Positions 36,063 to 46,703 of a DNA stretch of 64,000 nucleotides are shown here, piece after piece. The notes below the pieces were generated by a model that worked only from the letters and a program-made list of their open reading frames with translations, was not told the DNA's origin and did not search any database. The position numbers and the translations under genes are program-made. Origin of the DNA: Methanoplanus limicola DSM 2279 (GTDB lineage: Archaea > Halobacteriota > Methanomicrobia > Methanomicrobiales > Methanomicrobiaceae); assembly GCF_000243255.1 (NCBI RefSeq), contig NZ_CM001436.1, positions 532,077-596,076 on the forward strand, in the 5' to 3' direction. Position 1 is the stretch's first letter. Each line of letters opens with the position of its first letter.

Positions 36063-37124
36063 TCATGTTATTTCCGGAAGAATGTGTGACGGATAAGAAT
36101 GACCAACTTTCACAACCGTACCTGAGGCATTAAGATATGGGATTACAGAACCATAGGGATATTCTCCTTTATATCTCCAAATCTGCACCTGATATAATGG
36201 TTCACCCCGATCTTCAGTTATGCAGACTCCGGACACTTTATAATCAAGACCTCCTATTGAATCAATAACCCCTCCGTCTGCAAGTGCAAGCGATACTACC
36301 TCATCCTCTGTCAGGTCCATACCGGGATAATCTTTCGGGATGCATACATCAGCAGGACATGTTCCCCTGCCTACAGTCGTGGTGTAATAACTGCCATTAT
36401 ATTCAAAATATTTGCTCCTGTAGTGCATATTAGCATATTCCGTCTCTTCAGGTTTCAGGTAAGCCCTGCCGTGTCCGCCGCCGTACTCATTATAAAATGC
36501 CCTGTAAATGAGCGGATTTTCCTCAAACAGTGAATCATTGTAAGAAAGACGGGTAATATCATAAAGCTCAAGGTTCATTGTAATTTCATTGTCATTGGTA
36601 TAATCAGAGATCATTGAGTATCCTCCTGCACTGACATTGTCAATTGTCAGAATTTCACAAAAACATAAACATGGTTCGATTTTTTCATTGTTATCATCCG
36701 GAAACGGAGAGTAGTCCGGACCCCGGATTAGAGCAATATCCTTCTGCTGCTCCGCAGTTGGTCTCGTCCCTTTCCACCATGCTCCTGTTTCCGGATACCA
36801 GCCGTAACCCTGTTCTGCAAGTACTTCAGTAATATTCTCATCATCCATCCCCTGAACTTTTAGATCACTGATAAGTTTTTCAACCGGAGGAACGTAGTTA
36901 TTTAAGGCTTCAACATCCTCAGGAGTTGCAGGATATATCCCTTTATCAGACAGTTCACTCAGATTATTGTCTGATACGGATAACGGATCATCACCGGGAT
37001 TTTGGTCAGGAACTTCAGCAGCACTATCTGTACATCCGGCAGTACAGACCACAATCAGAAACACAATTAAGATTACAGTTAATCTAAACATTTCCGGAAC
37101 TGTTCTAAGCATATTATATTTCAT
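36063..37124 (-). CDS. Secreted lipoprotein, unknown function
   Basis: A 353-aa protein with a signal peptide ending in the lipobox VCTAGC at about residues 26-31, then an acidic linker (DQNPGDDPLSVSDNN). The mature part is rich in Asn-glycosylation sequons and has paired cysteines (PCLCFC near 150 and CPADVC near 255). I recognise no domain. Its ATG overlaps the stop of the beta-propeller gene upstream by 4 bp, so both are read from the box-containing promoter at 38257. Located outside the membrane. Confidence 0.75.
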   Translation of the reverse strand: MKYNMLRTVPEMFRLTVILIVFLIVVCTAGCTDSAAEVPDQNPGDDPLSVSDNNLSELSDKGIYPATPEDVEALNNYVPPVEKLISDLKVQGMDDENITEVLAEQGYGWYPETGAWWKGTRPTAEQQKDIALIRGPDYSPFPDDNNEKIEPCLCFCEILTIDNVSAGGYSMISDYTNDNEITMNLELYDITRLSYNDSLFEENPLIYRAFYNEYGGGHGRAYLKPEETEYANMHYRSKYFEYNGSYYTTTVGRGTCPADVCIPKDYPGMDLTEDEVVSLALADGGVIDSIGGLDYKVSGVCITEDRGEPLYQVQIWRYKGEYPYGSVIPYLNASGTVVKVGHSYPSHILPEIT

Positions 37125-38200
37125 CTTTTACCTCTTTGACATTTTAGAACCAGAAAAACAGCCAGTGGCAGAGACATGAACACTATTGATCCCATACCGG
37201 ATTCTGCTGCTCTGCCAGCTTCCGGGGAACCATATCCGGCAGACTCGTTATCAGTCATATTTCCGGATAAATCAGGTTCTGTCAGTCCTGAGATATCAGT
37301 GAAATAAAGGTCACCACCGAATGTCGTCCAGGCCACTATATCCCCGTCAACGGAGCAGTCATACTGGGCGAAATTCTGCGGACATATGTGATATTCCTCT
37401 CCGTTCTTCAGGTCATACATATAAATCTGTGAATAACCGGACCGGCAGTCTTCCCAGAAAATCCGGTCTTTAAATACCTGAGGACTGGCATAATCAACAT
37501 AAGGGCCGGATGCAATCAGCGTTTGATTACCGGAATCAGGATCTGTATAATACATATAGAGATCAGAAGTTCCGGCATCTCCGTGAACTACTTCTGTCAG
37601 ATTTGAAGAGAAATCCGGTCTGCGGTTATTTTTGTAACTATAGGATAACTCCCATGCAGATGTGACATCCGGATTTAGCAGTGAGTAGTTGTCTGCCGCC
37701 TCACTGCTTATTCTCTTAAGAGGTACAGAATAGAGTAACAGTTCATAGGGATTTGGATCTCCCGGATCATAGTACGCCGGTGACGTCCTGTCCTCATACC
37801 AGAAGACAGTGTCATTTTCAATCCACGGAAAACCACTACGGGATACGCTTTTGTAAACCGGAACTGACTTATCTGAGGATATGTTGTACAGATATATATT
37901 CCCCCTTGAGAGAAGTCTTAAGGGTGGTTTTCCCCGGATAATCCCGTACCTCTTCCACTCAGGATAATTTCCATAAGGATCGTCCTTAAAGTCAGTATAG
38001 ACAATATAATCCCCAAAGACATAAGGGTCGTATGAATGCCCCTCGGAGAACATGACCGGTTCTCCGGCGGAGACAGTCGGAAAAGAGAGAATAAGTATAA
38101 CCACTGAAAATGCCGGGATTATAATTTTAAAGAGATGTTTTTTCTCCGGAACTTTGCCTGACACGGCAGCTACCCCTGTACTTATTAAAATTCCCACCAT
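37121..38200 (-). CDS. Exported beta-propeller (TolB-like) surface protein
   Basis: A 359-aa protein with an N-terminal hydrophobic export segment (about residues 25-45), propeller repeats (DYIVYTDFKDD, NIYLYNISSDKSVPVYK, DRIFWEDCRSGYSQIYMYDLKNGEEYHI, GDIVAWTTFGGDLYFTDI) and a C-terminal membrane helix with a basic tail (FLVLKCQRGKR). The repeats alternate 'x-I-V-W' strands with 'x-L-Y-x-Y-N-I', the TolB/WD40-like periplasmic pattern. It is similar in design to the protein at 39821-40996. First gene of a two-gene minus-strand operon. Confidence 0.8.
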   Translation of the reverse strand: MVGILISTGVAAVSGKVPEKKHLFKIIIPAFSVVILILSFPTVSAGEPVMFSEGHSYDPYVFGDYIVYTDFKDDPYGNYPEWKRYGIIRGKPPLRLLSRGNIYLYNISSDKSVPVYKSVSRSGFPWIENDTVFWYEDRTSPAYYDPGDPNPYELLLYSVPLKRISSEAADNYSLLNPDVTSAWELSYSYKNNRRPDFSSNLTEVVHGDAGTSDLYMYYTDPDSGNQTLIASGPYVDYASPQVFKDRIFWEDCRSGYSQIYMYDLKNGEEYHICPQNFAQYDCSVDGDIVAWTTFGGDLYFTDISGLTEPDLSGNMTDNESAGYGSPEAGRAAESGMGSIVFMSLPLAVFLVLKCQRGKR

Positions 38201-38256
38201 GAAAAATATCCTGCAGATTATTACTTCTAAAATATTATGCTAAGATACCTTAAAGA

Positions 38257-38277
38257 CCTCTCACCATACCATTGAAC
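38257..38277 (-). promoter_or_regulatory. Regulatory box 1 (minus), GTTCAATGGTATGGTGAGAG type
   Basis: Identical over 21 bp to boxes 2 and 4. Directly downstream on the minus strand is CTTTAAGG (38248-38255), a possible TATA element for the propeller gene starting at 38200. The core holds the direct repeat ATGGTATGGT. Confidence 0.7.
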
Positions 38278-38356
38278 AGTCACGAAAATAAAAGATCCAA
38301 CATGAAATGCGTTACATGACATAACATCATTAACTTTTTTCCAGTCACAGACGATA

Positions 38357-38377
38357 GTTCAATGGTATGGTGAGAGG
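38357..38377 (+). promoter_or_regulatory. Regulatory box 2 (plus), same 21-bp sequence
   Basis: TTCAATGGTATGGTGAGAGG ends 3 nt before the TATA run ATATATATTA (38381-38390), which would start transcription toward the membrane gene at 38526. The position just upstream of TATA/BRE fits an activator site or an extended promoter element. Confidence 0.75.
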
Positions 38378-38525
38378 GACATATATATTATAACTTACAT
38401 AACTGAAGATTAAGGCCTTAAAAGGCAAAAATAAAAATTCATCAGCCAATAAAACAGACAGGGTATTTGACTTTTTATTAAGGGGTATATTGGGGTGTTT
38501 AGAACTGAAGGGGAGTAAAATATCT

Positions 38526-39047
38526 ATGTTAAATTCAGGTTACTGCTTTTACCTGTCTGCTTTGACTGTAGTATTCCTGCTGATCTTCATCTCAGTGATG
38601 TCATATATAGTAACAGAATTCTATATGATCAGCAATTCCACCCTGAATTTGATATTTTTCATTGCACCGGTAATGGCAGTATATTTCGGAATGAATGGTA
38701 ATGTACCAGAACCTGATGAAAAGTATTCAGGTAAATATCCAGGTAGCGGACCTGAAGAATACCAGGTGCTGATTCTTGCTTTTGTCATTCCGTTTCTTAC
38801 ATATTACATAATTGTCCCGTTTATTCCGGTAGCTTTAGCCTGTCTCGCGGATGAAATGATGTACTCCTCAAATTCTGAGATAATTTTTTCATATCTTCAG
38901 AATCACAGAGATAAGATTTTCCCGGCACTGGCAATTGGAATTGCAGGGACAGGAGGAGTATTAAAGAAAAGAAAAACGGTATTGTCCGTCTGCTGCCTAA
39001 TATTAAGCCCGTTTGTGATGGCCATGAATATGATGCATTCACTTTAG
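38526..39047 (+). CDS. Membrane protein, unknown
   Basis: A 173-aa protein from ATG 38526, behind GGGGAG; a TTG at 38490 would add 12 residues. It has two hydrophobic helices in the first 65 residues, two to three more after residue 90, and ends in a short hydrophobic segment. No recognised domain or catalytic motif. It is followed after 23 bp by another membrane protein, and both should be read from box 2. Confidence 0.7.
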   Translation: MLNSGYCFYLSALTVVFLLIFISVMSYIVTEFYMISNSTLNLIFFIAPVMAVYFGMNGNVPEPDEKYSGKYPGSGPEEYQVLILAFVIPFLTYYIIVPFIPVALACLADEMMYSSNSEIIFSYLQNHRDKIFPALAIGIAGTGGVLKKRKTVLSVCCLILSPFVMAMNMMHSL

Positions 39048-39070
39048 CCAAAAGAGATAAGAGTTCAAAT

Positions 39071-39637
39071 ATGATCTGGTTTTTATTGCTGATTCTTCTG
39101 CCTTCAATATTGTCACTGGTGCTCTATTACGCCCTGATGAATTTCAGGCGAACCATCAGGATTACAGTTGCAGTTTTCCTGCAATTACTGGTTTTACCGG
39201 CAGCACTTATTGTAATTTCAGATTATGAAAACATTCCGTTTATTCCGGTAATTACCTGGTTTACACTCATAGCATTCACTGTTGCCTGTTCAGTATCAAT
39301 ATCAATGGCCATATTTGACAATATATTATCCAAAAAAGGTGAGACAATAGCAGCATTCCTTGTCCCGTTTGTATCATTCCCTTTCATCATAACAATGGTA
39401 ATTGTTCCGGAAATGATTGCAGGACAGCATTTTCCGCCGGATTTCTTCGGACAGAGGCTTTTTTTAACCGGCTGGTTTTTAGATCTGATAACTGACAGTT
39501 CACAGTTCATAGCCGGAGAAGAGAGCATAACTGCTCTTGTTATACTTCATTTCGGCTTTTTTGCAGAGATATTAATTGTCATGATAATAATATTCGGGTT
39601 TTTTAAACTGATAACAGACTGCTATAAGAATCTGTAA
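39071..39637 (+). CDS. Membrane protein, unknown
   Basis: A 188-aa protein with five to six predicted membrane helices spread over the whole length (MIWFLLLILLPSILSLVLYY at the N-terminus). No soluble domain and no motif that I recognise. Second gene of the pair that starts at 38526. Convergent with the propeller gene ending at 39821. Confidence 0.7.
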   Translation: MIWFLLLILLPSILSLVLYYALMNFRRTIRITVAVFLQLLVLPAALIVISDYENIPFIPVITWFTLIAFTVACSVSISMAIFDNILSKKGETIAAFLVPFVSFPFIITMVIVPEMIAGQHFPPDFFGQRLFLTGWFLDLITDSSQFIAGEESITALVILHFGFFAEILIVMIIIFGFFKLITDCYKNL

Positions 39638-39820
39638 AGCACAGTCAGATTTTCATTTAAAAAGAGAAAGAACAGGAGGGTGTTTCATCCGGAATATTGT
39701 ATAATTTAAATTACTGCCGGTATTTTGCAGAAGATACGCCTGCAACTATCCTGCTGCCGTTCCTTTCTTAATACTTCCCATAAAGTGATCTGTCAATTAC
39801 GAAACAGGCAATCTGAAGTG

Positions 39821-40996
39821 TTATAGGGATTTTTTTGCATCACGCCATATGGATATGCCTGTTGCTCCAAGAATTCCACAGATTACCGGGACATAGCTAA
39901 ACCCTGGCAGAGATTGATTTTCAGGTTCCGGAATAGCGGAAGGGTCATATGTGAATAAGATTACATCCTGAACTGACCAGACAACCCTGTTGCCGGAGAC
40001 ATCTATTGCCCATCCTCCTTCCCCGGCAGAATTTATAACCATATCATCTCCGGTTGTCATATTCAGCAGATGGTTCTGCCGGTCCGGTACATCAGTACTC
40101 CAGAAGCCAAAATTTGTAAAGACCAGAATATCTCCGGATGCTGAAAAACTCCCGGCATTATCCCTGACCCTTGCAATTTCCTCTGTTGTTTTACTGCCGG
40201 TGTCATATTTCATAACAGAAGAGTGTGAACTGTTGGTTGTATAATCCGCCCATATGACAGTATTGTCATGCAGCAGGAATTCATCACGAAATCCAGTCAG
40301 ATCAGATACAATATCTGTCTTTCCGGTGCTGATATTGTATATGTACAGATCATTTACCGGTGAATCCGGGTTTTCTGTCCCCTCCCAGGCTACGGTTCCC
40401 CCGTCCACACGGCATGTTCCGGTAAAGACTGTTTTTTCCGAAATTTTCTCCGGTTCTCCTTTTTTAAGCTCCAGAAGATAGACATCGTTATGATCCGTCC
40501 ATGCTGCAAATTCTCCGGAAATATCAGGATAACGGGGGGCACCCATCTCAGTTGGAATCAGCTGAATCTCATCTGAGGAGATGTTATAGATGTAAAGGTC
40601 CCATATACGTGTATCAGCAAATTCATTCTCCCATTCAAGCCAGATTACATTGCCATCGGAAATTTTCGGAGAATAGAGTTCATAAAAACCGCCGCCTGAG
40701 ATTTTAACGCTTTTATTCTCCACAAGATTGTGGAGTATGAGTTTTTTATACTCACTCCAGATCACATAATCACCGTCAATACCGCAGTACCGCGGGGGGC
40801 TGTCTGTCCCAATTATACCAGTAGTGCCCGGTGCTGTATCATATGCTGATCCGGACTGAACCATTAAAGAGAGGATTGTCAGGGACAATATGAAGTAAAA
40901 CAAGATACTGGCAGGAAAATCACCATAGTTGCAGCGTCCACCACGCCCGGCATTAGAATGCTTCATGCAGATGAAATAGGGAATGCAGCACACCAT
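39821..40996 (-). CDS. Exported beta-propeller protein with PGF-like C-terminal anchor
   Basis: A 391-aa protein with an N-terminal export signal (FYFILSLTILSLMVQSGSA), at least five propeller repeats (GDYVIWSEYKKLILHNLV, GEFAAWTDHNDVYLLEL, NDLYIYNISTGKTDIVS, GDILVFTNFGF, GNRVVWSVQDVILFTY) and a C-terminal tail PENQSLPGFSY, a hydrophobic helix and WRDAKKSL. The PGF-hydrophobic-basic ending resembles PGF-CTERM archaeosortase targets, but that is inference. Box 3 and TATA lie directly upstream, making the start at 40996 nearly leaderless. Paralogous in design to the protein at 37121. Confidence 0.8.
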   Translation of the reverse strand: MVCCIPYFICMKHSNAGRGGRCNYGDFPASILFYFILSLTILSLMVQSGSAYDTAPGTTGIIGTDSPPRYCGIDGDYVIWSEYKKLILHNLVENKSVKISGGGFYELYSPKISDGNVIWLEWENEFADTRIWDLYIYNISSDEIQLIPTEMGAPRYPDISGEFAAWTDHNDVYLLELKKGEPEKISEKTVFTGTCRVDGGTVAWEGTENPDSPVNDLYIYNISTGKTDIVSDLTGFRDEFLLHDNTVIWADYTTNSSHSSVMKYDTGSKTTEEIARVRDNAGSFSASGDILVFTNFGFWSTDVPDRQNHLLNMTTGDDMVINSAGEGGWAIDVSGNRVVWSVQDVILFTYDPSAIPEPENQSLPGFSYVPVICGILGATGISIWRDAKKSL

Positions 40997-41030
40997 ATAT
41001 ACAACAATCTGATTTCAACCTATAAATATA

Positions 41031-41051
41031 CCTCTGACCATTCTATCGAAC
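41031..41051 (-). promoter_or_regulatory. Regulatory box 3 (minus), 17 of 21 matches
   Basis: On the minus strand it reads GTTCGATAGAATGGTCAGAG plus G, matching box 1 at 17 of 21 positions. It abuts TATATTTATA (41021-41030) directly and points toward the propeller gene starting at 40996. Confidence 0.65.
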
Positions 41052-41072
41052 AACTCTGACATATCATATATA

Positions 41073-41093
41073 GTTCAATGGTATGGTGAGAGG
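41073..41093 (+). promoter_or_regulatory. Regulatory box 4 (plus), identical 21-bp sequence
   Basis: Identical to box 2. It is followed by CATTTATATAG, with TATA at 41096-41103, and drives the plus-strand operon beginning at 41140. Predicted transcription start is near 41125, so the leader is short. Confidence 0.75.
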
Positions 41094-41139
41094 CATTTAT
41101 ATAGTCCCGAAATAAATCCATTAATCAGGGATAAAAGTC

Positions 41140-42153
41140 ATGCGGGGACCCGGGAGAATTAAATTTTTAAAATTAACAGGGATACTGGCTCTTGCTGTTT
41201 CAGTGACACTAATTACAGGATGCACGGAATACAACGCAGATGCCAACAACACAGACAATTCTGACGCCATAGTGCAGCTCCCAACCAAAGAACAATTAAT
41301 AATTAACTATTCAGAGATACCGATATCACAATCAGCAGAGGAACTCCTGACAACAAACGGGTCTTATGTTGCTAAGACAGCTTTAAAGGAGAAAAAAACA
41401 GAGCAGCTCATTAAAGCCGGAGGGAAAATACGCTCAGTTGATTTCATTTTTACCCCATGTCCCAAATATCCGGCATTCTGCCTTTCGTCATATCCACGGC
41501 TGATCATAGATTACAGCGGTCTTACATATTTTGTCAGTGTAAATGAGTCCTCCGGAGAAGTGGCTGGAGACGGAATTATTATGCCACAGGATATAGAGGG
41601 ATATTCAAAAGCTACCTTCGGAGATGAGACATACTTCTTCAACGGAACGAAAATCATTCTGGCCCAGAATGAGACAGACTTCATCTTTCCTGATACAGTC
41701 AAAGGGGATATACTCAGCCCGGAATCATCCGGATATGTAAATAATATCAAAGAGGCGGATTTTACAGTAAAGGAAAATATTACATCCGATATTACGGCAG
41801 TCATAGCTTTGGCCATAAACAACAGCAAGTTTAAAAACCTGATTAATGCCGGATTTAAACCGGAATTCGCAGCGGAAACGGAAGATGAGGCATACAAAAA
41901 AAGAATTCTTGTCGTCCTGACTTTAAGATACGGCGATATGTCATTTGCATTTGCCGCCAATGACAGAGAAGACTTTGTGCGGTATGAATACCCGGAAAAT
42001 GTATCTTACAGTTATTCAGACCAGAACCACCGTTATACGGCAAATCATGACAACCGGATGGAGAACTGGTGGATATTTGACAAAGAGAAAAATGAGGTTG
42101 TTATGATCTTTAACAGGACTGAAGTCAGGTACCTTAACACTGCCGGGATATGA
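41140..42153 (+). CDS. Secreted lipoprotein, unknown function
   Basis: A 337-aa protein with signal peptide and lipobox LITGC (Cys28), then a hydrophilic domain rich in sequons (NNT, NYS, NGS). The mature part has one cysteine pair (TPCPKYPAFCLSSYP near residue 107). No recognised domain. First gene of the plus-strand operon downstream of box 4; the next lipoprotein gene starts 55 bp later. Anchored outside the membrane. Confidence 0.75.
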   Translation: MRGPGRIKFLKLTGILALAVSVTLITGCTEYNADANNTDNSDAIVQLPTKEQLIINYSEIPISQSAEELLTTNGSYVAKTALKEKKTEQLIKAGGKIRSVDFIFTPCPKYPAFCLSSYPRLIIDYSGLTYFVSVNESSGEVAGDGIIMPQDIEGYSKATFGDETYFFNGTKIILAQNETDFIFPDTVKGDILSPESSGYVNNIKEADFTVKENITSDITAVIALAINNSKFKNLINAGFKPEFAAETEDEAYKKRILVVLTLRYGDMSFAFAANDREDFVRYEYPENVSYSYSDQNHRYTANHDNRMENWWIFDKEKNEVVMIFNRTEVRYLNTAGI

Positions 42154-42208
42154 TATCCATGAAGCAAAAACGATTATTTCAGATTCAGGATTTTTGAGAG
42201 GTAATTTC

Positions 42209-43189
42209 ATGAAGAAACTAACAATTATAAAACTGATATTATTGTCTGCCCTTGTAATGGCTATTACTGCCACATGCGGATGCACAGATAACACAAAAAC
42301 AGAAGTATATGACGAAAACGGCAACTGGATCATTCTTCCGGAGGACAACCGTACAGATGGTCCCAAAGGTACACATTCAGAAGCTGATTTTTCAGAAGGT
42401 AAATATGACGGCCTTACAATTCATACATCCCCAAAATCACTCATAGCAACAGAAGGAGGCAGTGCCACAATAGAGGTCACGTTTTTAAACAAAGGTGATT
42501 TGCCTCTTAAAATTGGAAATTACTCCCCAAAGTTTCTGATTAAAGACCCAAGTGACATCTCCCTGCCGTTTGGAATTATTAAGAGATATTCAAATGGGAG
42601 TGATACAGTCGGGATAAAACCCGGTGAAAACCTCACTTATGAGATCATATGGGACCTGACTGATGAATACGGAAGAAACGTTTCTCCCGGATTATACGTC
42701 CTTGAAATGCCGGATGTGATGGTCTGGGACGGCATAACTGAAGAGAAATTTACAGGTGTACTTGGAAAGGCAATATCTGAAGTCATGGTTAAACCGGACG
42801 GTGAAATTATGAATGAAATAATTCCGGTTGATACCAAAAGAGAAGATGAAGATATAACGATTACTTTTGAGAAAATTGATGCCAGGCCCACCGGTACAGA
42901 CCTGCTTTTTTCCGTTCTTCCAAAAAATCCGGTGTATAACATAACCAATGAAGGAGGAGAAGTCCGGACATATACCTATTCACCGGACGATAAAATCAGT
43001 GGATTTTACAGTATTGACGGCGGGAAGGAAAAATATCTCTGGAATGCCGAATTATCGGGAATGAACGGAGAGCTAAGGACTTTTACCTGCACAGTTGAAC
43101 CACTCTCAGTAACGTATGAAAATATCTCTGTGAATATAACCAGCTTTGGTCCGGTGGGCGGGGAATGGAATTTTAAAAAGGAAATATAA
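42209..43189 (+). CDS. Secreted lipoprotein with an Ig-like (BsuPI-type) domain
   Basis: A 326-aa protein from ATG 42209, behind GAGGTAATTTC; an ATG at 42194 is weaker. The lipobox is TATCGC near residue 23. A beta-sandwich stretch, GGSATIEVTFLNKGDLPLKIGNYSP then PGENLTYEIIWDLTDEYGRNVSPGLYVLEM, resembles intracellular-proteinase-inhibitor/BsuPI-like or Ig-like folds seen in exported proteins. That assignment is tentative. Followed by the cysteine-rich triplet after 12 bp. Confidence 0.72.
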   Translation: MKKLTIIKLILLSALVMAITATCGCTDNTKTEVYDENGNWIILPEDNRTDGPKGTHSEADFSEGKYDGLTIHTSPKSLIATEGGSATIEVTFLNKGDLPLKIGNYSPKFLIKDPSDISLPFGIIKRYSNGSDTVGIKPGENLTYEIIWDLTDEYGRNVSPGLYVLEMPDVMVWDGITEEKFTGVLGKAISEVMVKPDGEIMNEIIPVDTKREDEDITITFEKIDARPTGTDLLFSVLPKNPVYNITNEGGEVRTYTYSPDDKISGFYSIDGGKEKYLWNAELSGMNGELRTFTCTVEPLSVTYENISVNITSFGPVGGEWNFKKEI

Positions 43190-43201: not shown

Positions 43202-44179
43202 ATGATTGTTGGAAAATACCCGGTTATTTTGATTTCAGTATCTCTGCTAATGACGATAATATGCCTGCCGGTATCAGGGGATATTATCACCCCAACCAAA
43301 ACAGAAGTTTTCTTTGAAAAAAACGGTCAGCCGTATAATGATTCTGTCGAATTTACAGTAAGATGCTACGGCTATACCTTTTATCCGGGATCAGAGGAAT
43401 TTACGGATTACATAAACGGGAATTATGAAAAGAAAGAACCGGGAACATACAACATGACTGAGGTCTTTTCATACTCCGCAACTGCCGGACATTACGGCGA
43501 TGCGATATATGAACCGTTTTACCTGAACTACCGGGTAATTGATCACTGTACACTCTGTGGAGAGACAAGCGGCAAAAAATTTGTCATTGAATATATTGGA
43601 GACAGTCCAATTCCGGACTGCAAAAGAGCAGAGTATCGTGTAATCCGGGATTATGATTCTGATGTCTGCCACATGGAAACAGACAGTGCATATACCTGCT
43701 TTGAAGAGGAAGAGAGGCTGAAATGCCAAAAAGCCGACCTGTGCGATAAATACCTGGTAATTTATGATGACACCCGGATTTACCCCGATGATACGAGAAC
43801 CATGGAGGCTGACGGTGTCACTATGGTTCTCACAAAAGAATACCTCAGGTGTACTGACGAGGCATACAGCCTTGATCTCAACTGCACCGATCTCTTAAAG
43901 ACGGTTCCATGTGAGGACTACTGCGATCCTGAAGGTCATCCGATTGACAGGGAATGCAGCCTGCATTACACAATCCCGACTGATGAAAACGGCAATATAG
44001 TTGAGACGGATACGAAGCAGGAATCCGGCATACCAGAGACAATTACAGAAAATGGTGCTGCAAAGCAGAATGTCAGAAACGAAACGGCTCTAAACGAGAC
44101 ATCATCCCTAAACCCCGGTAAAGGTGCAGACAATAATCTCTTTACAGTCATTATGAAATTTTTAGGGCTGATTAAATGA
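43202..44179 (+). CDS. Cysteine-rich secreted protein, tandem paralogue 1 of 3
   Basis: A 325-aa protein with a cleavable signal (to about residue 26, ICLPVSG), then PTKTEVFFEKNGQPYNDSVEFTVRCYGY, GTYNMTEVFSYSATA, FYLNYRVIDHCTLCG and more than ten cysteines spread over residues 55-250 (CEDYCDPEGHPIDREC near 238). A Thr/Asn-rich linker follows, then a short hydrophobic end (FTVIMKFLGLIK). Many Asn-glycosylation sequons. No known domain. It overlaps paralogue 2 by 4 bp. Disulfide-bonded or metal-binding surface protein is inference. Confidence 0.8.
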   Translation: MIVGKYPVILISVSLLMTIICLPVSGDIITPTKTEVFFEKNGQPYNDSVEFTVRCYGYTFYPGSEEFTDYINGNYEKKEPGTYNMTEVFSYSATAGHYGDAIYEPFYLNYRVIDHCTLCGETSGKKFVIEYIGDSPIPDCKRAEYRVIRDYDSDVCHMETDSAYTCFEEEERLKCQKADLCDKYLVIYDDTRIYPDDTRTMEADGVTMVLTKEYLRCTDEAYSLDLNCTDLLKTVPCEDYCDPEGHPIDRECSLHYTIPTDENGNIVETDTKQESGIPETITENGAAKQNVRNETALNETSSLNPGKGADNNLFTVIMKFLGLIK

Positions 44180-45156
44180 GCAGCAAACAGATAACAATTC
44201 TGATTATGGCAGGGATTATCCTTATAGCTCTGACTTTGCCGGCATCTGCGGATAGAATAATGCCGACCTCAACCAAAGTCTTCTTTGAAAAGAACGGAGA
44301 GCCTTACAACGGCACTGTCAGTTTCACGGTTACCTGCTATGGTTACATTGTGGACGACACAGACCCGAATTTCAAATATTACTGGCGTGGAAATTACCAG
44401 AGAAGAGAACCGGGGACATACAACCAGACTGAAGTATTCTCATACTCCGCAACCGTTGACCATTACGGTGATGAGATATTTGAACCGTTTTACTTAAATT
44501 ACCGGATCATTGATTACTGCACACTTTCCGGAGAAGCAGAGGGGAAAAAGTTTGTAATTGAAAATGCAGGGGTAAGCCCGATTCCGGACTGCAAAATGAG
44601 AGAGAAATTTGTCAGTTTTCCAAAGGAGAAAAGCTCAGACGTATGCTACATCAGCACCAGTCAGTCAGACAGATGTCAGGAGGAGGAGAACGAATTAAAG
44701 GAAAAAGAGCATGAATTATGCGACAGATATCTTGAAGTTTTTGATAAAAAAAAGAAATACCCAAAAGACACCGGGACCTTTAAACGCGACGGAGTTACAA
44801 TGGTGATCACAGAAGAGTGCAGAAAATGCCATGAAGAAGCAGAAGCCATTGATCTAAACTGCACTGTATTTGACGATGAAGTTTCATGCAGTGATTACTG
44901 TGACCCTGACGGAAATCCTCTTCTAAGATACTGTAACCTGCATTACACCATTCCAACGGACGAAAATGGTAACATAATTGAGATGGATACAAAACAGGAA
45001 TCCGATAAATCTGAAACGATAACAGAACCGGATACAGCATTAAAAGACGTAATAAACGAAACGGCTGAAAACGATACGTCATCTCAAAACACCCGCACAG
45101 ATGCAGATGACAGTTTCTTTACAGCAATTATGAAATTTTTTGGGCTGATTAAATGA
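44176..45156 (+). CDS. Cysteine-rich secreted protein, tandem paralogue 2 of 3
   Basis: A 326-aa protein with the same order as paralogue 1: signal ending PASADR, PTSTKVFFEKNGEPYNGTVSF, GTYNQTEVFSYSATVDHYGD, CSDYCDPDGNPLLRYC and the hydrophobic end FFTAIMKFFGLIK. It has the most charged middle segment (QEEENELKEKEHELC). It lacks the second Cys of the HCTLCG pair (YCTLSG). It overlaps both neighbours by ATGA. Confidence 0.8.
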   Translation: MSSKQITILIMAGIILIALTLPASADRIMPTSTKVFFEKNGEPYNGTVSFTVTCYGYIVDDTDPNFKYYWRGNYQRREPGTYNQTEVFSYSATVDHYGDEIFEPFYLNYRIIDYCTLSGEAEGKKFVIENAGVSPIPDCKMREKFVSFPKEKSSDVCYISTSQSDRCQEEENELKEKEHELCDRYLEVFDKKKKYPKDTGTFKRDGVTMVITEECRKCHEEAEAIDLNCTVFDDEVSCSDYCDPDGNPLLRYCNLHYTIPTDENGNIIEMDTKQESDKSETITEPDTALKDVINETAENDTSSQNTRTDADDSFFTAIMKFFGLIK

Positions 45157-46127
45157 ACAGCAAAGCAATAGTTATCCTGATACTGGCCGGATTTATCTTT
45201 CTGGCACTGATATTACCGGCATCTGCGGACATAACACAGCCTACCGAAACTAAGATTTTCTTCGAGAAAGACGGAGAACCATACAACAAGTCAGTTACTT
45301 ATACCGTAAAATGCTACGGCTACATTCTCAAAGTGAGAACCCAGGAATGGAAAGATTATCTAAGTGGAAATTATGAGAAAAGAGAAACGGGAACATACAA
45401 TATGACAGAAGTATTCTCATATTCCGCTACAGTAGATAATTACGGAGACTCCATCTACGAGCCGTTTTACTATAATCACAGGGTAATTGACCACTGTACA
45501 CTATGCGGAAAAGCCGGCGGTGTGGAATTTACAATCGAAAATATAGGTGATATTCCAAATCCGGACTGCAATTACCTGGAGTACAATGTTTACAGGGATT
45601 ACCATTCAGGAGAATACGGGCCGTGCCTGATGACGACTGACGAATCTGATGCCTGCAATAAAGAGCAATCAAGGCTAATATCCGAAGGATATGACTTATG
45701 CAGAGAATATTTTGAAGAATATGATGAAAATAAGATTTATCCTGAAGGTACAAGAACATTTGAGATGAATAACACAACCATGGTCTGGACTGAAGAATAC
45801 TATGCATGTAATGAAGAAGTACGCAATATTGATCTTAACTGTTCAGATTTACTTGAGACTGTACCATGTGAAGACTATTGTAATCCGGAAGGTCAGCCAA
45901 TAAGAAAAGAAGGCAGCCTGCACTACACCATTCCTACAGACGAGGATGGCAATATAATAAAACATAATACAGAAAAAGAAACTCAGTTTGCAGCAGAAGA
46001 GAAGATAAAACCGGAAAATATCAAAATTTTAACGGCTGATAATATAACTTCATCTCAAAATCTCCGGAATGATACAGATGACAGTTTCTTTACAGCCATT
46101 CTGAAATTTTTGGGCCTGAGGAACTAA
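45153..46127 (+). CDS. Cysteine-rich secreted protein, tandem paralogue 3 of 3
   Basis: A 324-aa protein, same layout: signal ending PASADI, PTETKIFFEKDGEPYNKSV, GTYNMTEVFSYSATVDNYGD, HCTLCG, CEDYCNPEGQPI and the end FFTAILKFLGLRN. It is closest to paralogue 1 around HCTLCG and LLETVPCEDYC and closest to paralogue 2 at both ends, a mosaic that suggests gene conversion. Last clear member of the box 4 operon. Confidence 0.8.
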   Translation: MNSKAIVILILAGFIFLALILPASADITQPTETKIFFEKDGEPYNKSVTYTVKCYGYILKVRTQEWKDYLSGNYEKRETGTYNMTEVFSYSATVDNYGDSIYEPFYYNHRVIDHCTLCGKAGGVEFTIENIGDIPNPDCNYLEYNVYRDYHSGEYGPCLMTTDESDACNKEQSRLISEGYDLCREYFEEYDENKIYPEGTRTFEMNNTTMVWTEEYYACNEEVRNIDLNCSDLLETVPCEDYCNPEGQPIRKEGSLHYTIPTDEDGNIIKHNTEKETQFAAEEKIKPENIKILTADNITSSQNLRNDTDDSFFTAILKFLGLRN

Positions 46128-46202: not shown

Positions 46203-46703
46203 ATGACTTACGAATCCTTATTCCTTGAATCCCTCATCTTTACGTGGATTATGGAAATCCCGCTGATGTACGCCATAATCCGCATTGCAGAAAGAACAGA
46301 TCTCCTGAAGAGAACAATTAGCGGTAGAAAATACAGAGAAGATGCAGACAATTGCACAGACTGTGGAGATGCAGATAAAAAAACAGATGGAGAAAACGGT
46401 GGAAAGAAAGCTGACCGGAAGGACAATCTTAATGTTAATGGTAAGGAAAACCTGAAAGAGAAGATTTCCGAGCCGGATATTTTTGCAGCCGGAATTTTGA
46501 TGACGGCACTGACTCTGCCATACCTCTGGTTTATAATGCCGGTTTATCTTGATATGTCATGGTATCCGGTCAATGGTGAGATTATTGTTGCCGCTGTGGA
46601 GTCAGTGATAATCTGGTATATGCTTAAAATCAGGCTGTATCAGGCCGTGATCATTGCCATCATTGTCAATTCTGTTTCTTACGGGCTTGGACTTCTCATC
46701 TGA
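46203..46703 (+). CDS. Membrane protein with a charged Cys/Lys loop
   Basis: A 166-aa protein: one helix at about residues 8-28, a long charged cytoplasmic or external loop with NCTDCGDADKKTDGENGGKKADRKD at about 53-80, then three helices to the C-terminus. No recognised domain. It starts 75 bp after the triplet on the same strand and may share its transcript. Confidence 0.65.
   Translation: MTYESLFLESLIFTWIMEIPLMYAIIRIAERTDLLKRTISGRKYREDADNCTDCGDADKKTDGENGGKKADRKDNLNVNGKENLKEKISEPDIFAAGILMTALTLPYLWFIMPVYLDMSWYPVNGEIIVAAVESVIIWYMLKIRLYQAVIIAIIVNSVSYGLGLLI

Follow-up and report, generated by a model that had tools for sequence, protein, structure and literature searches.

Bacterial regulators of the ToxR-ToxS/CadC type have a membrane-tethered winged helix, and a ToxS-like exported partner is encoded in the same operon. 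The archaeal promoter-proximal activators Ptr2, GvpE and EarA (the last cited in PMC6396743) have their sites immediately before the TFB recognition element (BRE) and the TATA box. ArnR and ArnR1 of Sulfolobus acidocaldarius are membrane-anchored helix-turn-helix one-component activators with boxes upstream of the BRE/TATA of a surface-structure gene; ArnR has an N-terminal helix-turn-helix and a HAMP-like region, its box is the palindrome TCGAC-N5-GTCGA, and the fragment tested spans -43 to -84 (PMC6396743). Methanomicrobia are enriched in transmembrane transcription regulators (TTRs), according to a survey (PMC10269533). Here we describe a 21-base box, GTTCAATGGTATGGTGAGAGG, in a 64,000-nt stretch of the Methanoplanus limicola DSM 2279 genome (the window; contig NZ_CM001436.1, positions 532,077 to 596,076), together with a two-gene operon, A-B, that encodes its candidate regulator, B, and an exported partner, A. 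The box is probably a private upstream activator site at the BRE/TATA, belonging to AB1, one of several paralogous one-component regulators that Methanomicrobiaceae anchor in the membrane. TTRs as such are a known class.

The window holds three perfect copies of the box and one copy matching at 17 of 21 positions, whereas no exact match is expected by chance (0 in 100 dinucleotide shuffles). An earlier note on this DNA had placed these copies as inverted pairs in divergent intergenic regions, with TATA elements 0-3 nt past three of them, and had taken them for the operator, or an extended promoter, of a regulon of cell-surface proteins; the sequence bears out all these positions. One pair lies in 38201-38489. 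Box 1 (38257..38277, minus strand, exact, type I) is a strong match to the promoter model described below (E 3.6e-5), is followed by a weaker tcTTTAAGG in the TATA position, and stands in the promoter of 38200-37121. Box 2 (38357..38377, plus strand, exact, type I) is followed by the TATA run gaCATATATA and stands in the promoter of the open reading frame that begins at 38490 or a later ATG. The other pair lies in 40997-41139. Box 3 (41073..41093, plus strand, exact, type I; model E 1.5e-5) precedes the run caTTTATATA, with TATA TTTATATA, in the promoter of the 41140-46703 gene run, and is conserved at 20 of 21 positions in a sister species (G001). Box 4 (41031..41051, minus strand; model E 0.0012) is the 17/21 copy; it reads GTTCGATAGAATGGTCAGAGG, has TATA TATATTTATA, and stands in the promoter of 40996-39821. 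TATA-like runs start 0-3 nt past boxes 2, 3 and 4. Box 4 has the type II signature (G5, C16), and the same type I/type II pair occurs at this region in the sister species, so that two regulators may read the 41-kb region. The downstream genes encode signal peptides, lipoboxes or membrane segments, in line with the exported or membrane proteins that the note had stated. A tRNA or Rfam origin of the boxes was considered and rejected, as there was no such match.

We then scanned the whole M. limicola genome (3,200,946 bp; G000). Allowing up to 3 mismatches, GTTCAATGGTATGGTGAGAGG occurred at 11 sites, compared to 0 for a reversed-pattern control. A 34-nt model of box plus TATA, built from sequence only, found 22 sites at E<0.02, and the next candidate appeared only at E=0.46. 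The 22 sites fall into five clusters (570-573, 646-661, 1091, 1138-1143 and 2857-2868 kb), and every one of them precedes an intact or remnant gene of an exported protein; outside the window, most head genes of a secreted family, here called S. The control and the gap in E values argue against the random occurrence inside genes that the note had named as fatal to its proposal. Judged by this pattern, the box is a real promoter element of secreted and surface-protein genes, with a set spacing to TATA.

The same element was found in several Methanomicrobiaceae genera when the search among relatives proposed in the note was run, there too upstream of exported-protein genes, and boxes cluster with S genes in M. 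limicola and four related genomes (G002, G003, G008 and G009). The regulon foreseen in the note is thus supported, but it is broader, lies mostly outside the window, and is common to related genera. Across 83 distinct sites the register between box and TATA is constant: columns 25-30 from the box start form the TATA and are 92-100% A/T. G14 is invariant, and T2, T3, A6, A17 and A19 are each conserved in at least 95% of sites, whereas the flanks beyond box and TATA differ among sites. A conserved element at a fixed distance before TATA is what characterizes an archaeal upstream activator site; the box has this layout beside the BRE/TATA and is predicted to be bound by an activator.

The S proteins have a near-identical signal peptide, MKLKKGVRALSLLLxMALxTAMFVPAVSA, but unrelated mature parts, which include M12-like metallopeptidase, C39-like and DUF6345 domains, and transglutaminase-like domains in relatives. 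Most S genes are followed by a small gene for a lipoprotein or membrane partner. In M. limicola the S cassettes have in common the promoter, a leader of ~260 nt and the signal peptide, and some boxes sit before truncated S remnants, as expected from cassette turnover. The boxes could therefore be seen as leftovers of a recent duplication of promoter-leader cassettes, with no separate regulatory role. This is highly improbable, considering that the window boxes have neither an S-type leader nor common flanks, and that in other genera the box turns up in contexts of no common origin while keeping the same distance to TATA. At two M. limicola loci (L043 and L042), intact S promoters have an extra box ~510-550 nt further upstream that stands before a truncated S remnant; this suggests promoter/signal-peptide recombination. 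The S mRNA leader of ~200-350 nt is conserved in four genera (L042:3190-3420, L105:4641-4876, L106:4554-4890 and L113:3039-3286) and ends in an ACCGGCA...TGCCGGT hairpin, some pairs of which covary; an Rfam search with the leader gave no match. The leader is absent from the window genes with the same box.

The candidate regulator is encoded by operon A-B, which lies behind two tandem type I boxes in G002, G003, G008 and G009. These tandem boxes are exactly 107 nt apart in four genomes of three genera (L105 3022/3129, L106 2811/2918, L108 and L109). A is an exported beta-protein of ~150 aa, with a weak PPC-domain match in one paralogue. B is ~250 aa long; its N-terminal part holds two hydrophobic segments and its C-terminal part tandem winged helices (PF13412, E from about 1e-14 to 1e-18, and PF24266), and its relatives in a PDB sequence search were ArsR/HlyU-like. 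At least two hydrophobic segments were present in all 26 B sequences, so that B combines a DNA-binding domain and transmembrane segments in one protein, as TTRs do, and is predicted to regulate transcription from the membrane. A B match at E<1e-30 was found in 75 of the 149 genomes sampled in the class, with up to 11 matches per genome. When genome contigs were searched with B, just five loci came up, all of them distant (Methanoperedens, Methanospirillum and a Methanosarcinales bin). The numbers of S, A and B genes covary over 30 genomes (Spearman 0.92-0.96), and each of the 16 genomes that carry S also has B. At 17 of 20 fetched A-B loci the operon diverges from an S or S-like gene, and most have a box pair, inverted or tandem, in between. 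At two A-B paralogues (L180 and L185) the promoter repeat TTTGTCRTAnAAAA replaces the usual box.

Among the known systems, the closest parallel characterised in archaea is ArnR, with the same design of a membrane-anchored DNA-binding regulator and boxes upstream of BRE/TATA. However, B has its membrane segments at the N-terminus, two winged helices at the C-terminus, an exported partner and many paralogues, and its box is non-palindromic and directly at the BRE position. The domain order of B and a box consensus other than TCGAC-N5-GTCGA thus place both outside the ArnR family. The layout of A-B, in which an exported protein would serve as co-sensor for a regulator tethered to the membrane, resembles that of ToxR-ToxS/CadC, with no homology expected; B has the opposite domain order and tandem winged helices. 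Ptr2, GvpE and EarA are similar in site position but different in protein family and motif. CsmR of Haloferax (TATCA-N4-TGATA, Lrp-like; PMC13286277) was dismissed as a relative on account of its motif and its type of protein. B shares with the surveyed TTRs the union of DNA-binding domain and transmembrane segments, but the B family, its boxes, partner A and targets are not described in the excerpted part of that survey (PMC10269533). No description of the box system was found in the open-access literature searched, which did not extend to the main survey of archaeal toxins (mBio 2019).

Each A-B paralogue has its own box type, shared by the A-B promoter and the S gene that diverges from it. 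The clade I box is GTTCAAgnncATrGTGArAG, the clade II box ATTCGATGATTTGGTCAGAA and the clade III box GTTGGACGATTTGGACATAA. Over 20 positions, boxes diverge by 2.9 between the arms of one module, but by 9.2 when different modules within a genome are compared. Two S genes with no type I box have GTTGGAGACTCTGGACAGAA, identical to the box of the neighbouring A-B paralogue a few kb off, and its 7 exact copies in the genome all lie within 2849.7-2865.5 kb. Similarly, the box of the 1441-kb A-B paralogue has exactly two genome copies, and these fall in the promoter region of that same A-B operon. The idea of a single operator shared by every A-B module was rejected, because the boxes differ by paralogue. 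B distance and box distance are correlated (Mantel r=0.56, p=0.0001), a figure to be read with the reservations that the box registers were aligned by hand ahead of the test and that the match is partly common descent of whole loci, which the Mantel test removes incompletely.

These data are consistent with binding and activation by candidate B at the box. B would sense the extracytoplasmic state via its loop and A, bind the box while anchored in the membrane and recruit TBP/TFB, and it would turn on the S cassettes and its own A-B operon. In the window it would turn on orphan genes for lipoproteins and membrane proteins of the partner type, an island that may protect against S proteins. Alternatively, B might bind the box as a repressor that blocks TFB/TBP and is released by an external signal. 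Repressors often sit in divergent modules that they regulate themselves, the box adjoins the BRE/TATA and could occlude TFB, and the winged helices of B resemble ArsR-type repressors, but also the activator HlyU. The constant spacing beside TATA at 83 sites would favour an activator in contact with the basal machinery, whereas simple blocking tolerates variable placement. We give this variant, which shares the probability of the activator explanation, a modest chance.

Besides the reservations on the Mantel test, several observations weigh against AB1 as the reader of the box. The sister species G001, of the same genus, retains the window island and its boxes yet has no A, B or S, and in another genome (G013), which does have type I boxes, all that is left of an AB1-like operon is a degraded remnant. 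Damage is also seen in the AB1 copies of M. limicola itself: an in-frame stop interrupts one B and another is split, whereas the B that is intact, at 656.5 kb, is accompanied by only a fragment of A. Furthermore, three A-B loci (L178, L179 and L184) show no clear box pair of the usual kind. The boxes kept in G001 and G013 are what one would expect if the box, as a true regulatory element, were bound by an unlinked soluble activator, with A-B merely another target. We regard this as distinctly unlikely, since box type tracks the B paralogue across and within genomes, unlike a response to one common activator, and since G001 bears a trace of loss. The AB1/S island lies between a full and a partial fae-hps copy (M. 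limicola, 643-664 kb; L042, L228, L231 and L232), and in G001 (L229) a second partial fae-hps 3' end follows the fae-hps gene, where AB1 lies in other genomes. This scar suggests that the AB1/S island was recently lost from G001 and that the boxes there may be leftovers; it is possible that another protein binds them in place of B. A HicAB-like pair, judged from sequence, lies between the fae-hps copies of G001.

The window island contains no S gene, and the box there would drive homologues of partner genes instead. Behind box 1 lie a beta-propeller-like exported/membrane protein (37121..38200, minus strand; repeats judged from sequence), which had no match in a Pfam scan and whose G002 orthologue (69%) likewise has a box, and an exported lipoprotein as second gene (36063..37124, minus strand; G001 orthologue 81%). 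Box 2 is followed by a membrane protein (38490..39047, plus strand) and then another (39071..39637, plus strand), homologous to an S-cassette partner-position gene in G013 (L189; 38% over 105 aa, E 5e-20). Box 4 precedes an exported Kelch/beta-propeller protein (39821..40996, minus strand; the Kelch_6 match, E 4e-5, does not reach the curated cut-off). The plus-strand run behind box 3 begins with two lipoproteins, 41140..42153, a homologue of an S-partner lipoprotein in G008 (L188; 31% over 140 aa, E 3.5e-22), and 42194..43189, a homologue of S-partner lipoproteins in G003 (L106; E 4e-19) and M. limicola (L043; E 6e-15). Three tandem exported paralogues follow (43202..46127, starting at 43202, 44176 and 45153), with five copies in G001 and no Pfam family for the two scanned; a membrane protein (46203..46703) is last of the run. 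Most window proteins had no Pfam family in the scan. From its gene content, the island looks like a satellite of the regulon, made up of orphan S-partner genes and beta-propeller proteins under the type I box.

The constant N-terminal part and diverse mature domains of S proteins are a hallmark of polymorphic effectors, and we infer an effector/immunity role for S and partner genes. Archaeal polymorphic toxin/immunity loci and VARTIG, as presented in PMC8416519 (citing Makarova 2019), resemble them in the constant leader part, variable exported part, dedicated membrane or lipoprotein gene and orphan partners; however, S proteins have only the signal peptide in common, and several are peptidase-like. 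No nuclease toxin domain was seen in the S proteins. A wider proposal, which we put forward tentatively and hold somewhat less likely than its negation, is that Methanomicrobiaceae have a modular arsenal of secreted hydrolases, with each S and partner class under its own A-B sensor pair and paralogue-specific BRE/TATA element, and with orphan partner islands such as that of the window on the same element for self- or kin protection. Target promoters are known for few of the archaeal regulators that sense the outside of the cell; here a single family brings together a candidate regulator, a promoter element and a regulon, and its many natural paralogue/box pairs make specificity directly testable. 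The system further reveals that methanogens have many secreted peptidase-like proteins with partners, so far unstudied, which bears on archaeal dealings with neighbours, and it suggests a possible function for lipoprotein islands that have no other annotation.

Elsewhere in the window, two tRNA-Asp genes (1020-1094 and 1846-1920) lie on the same strand, ~800 nt from each other.
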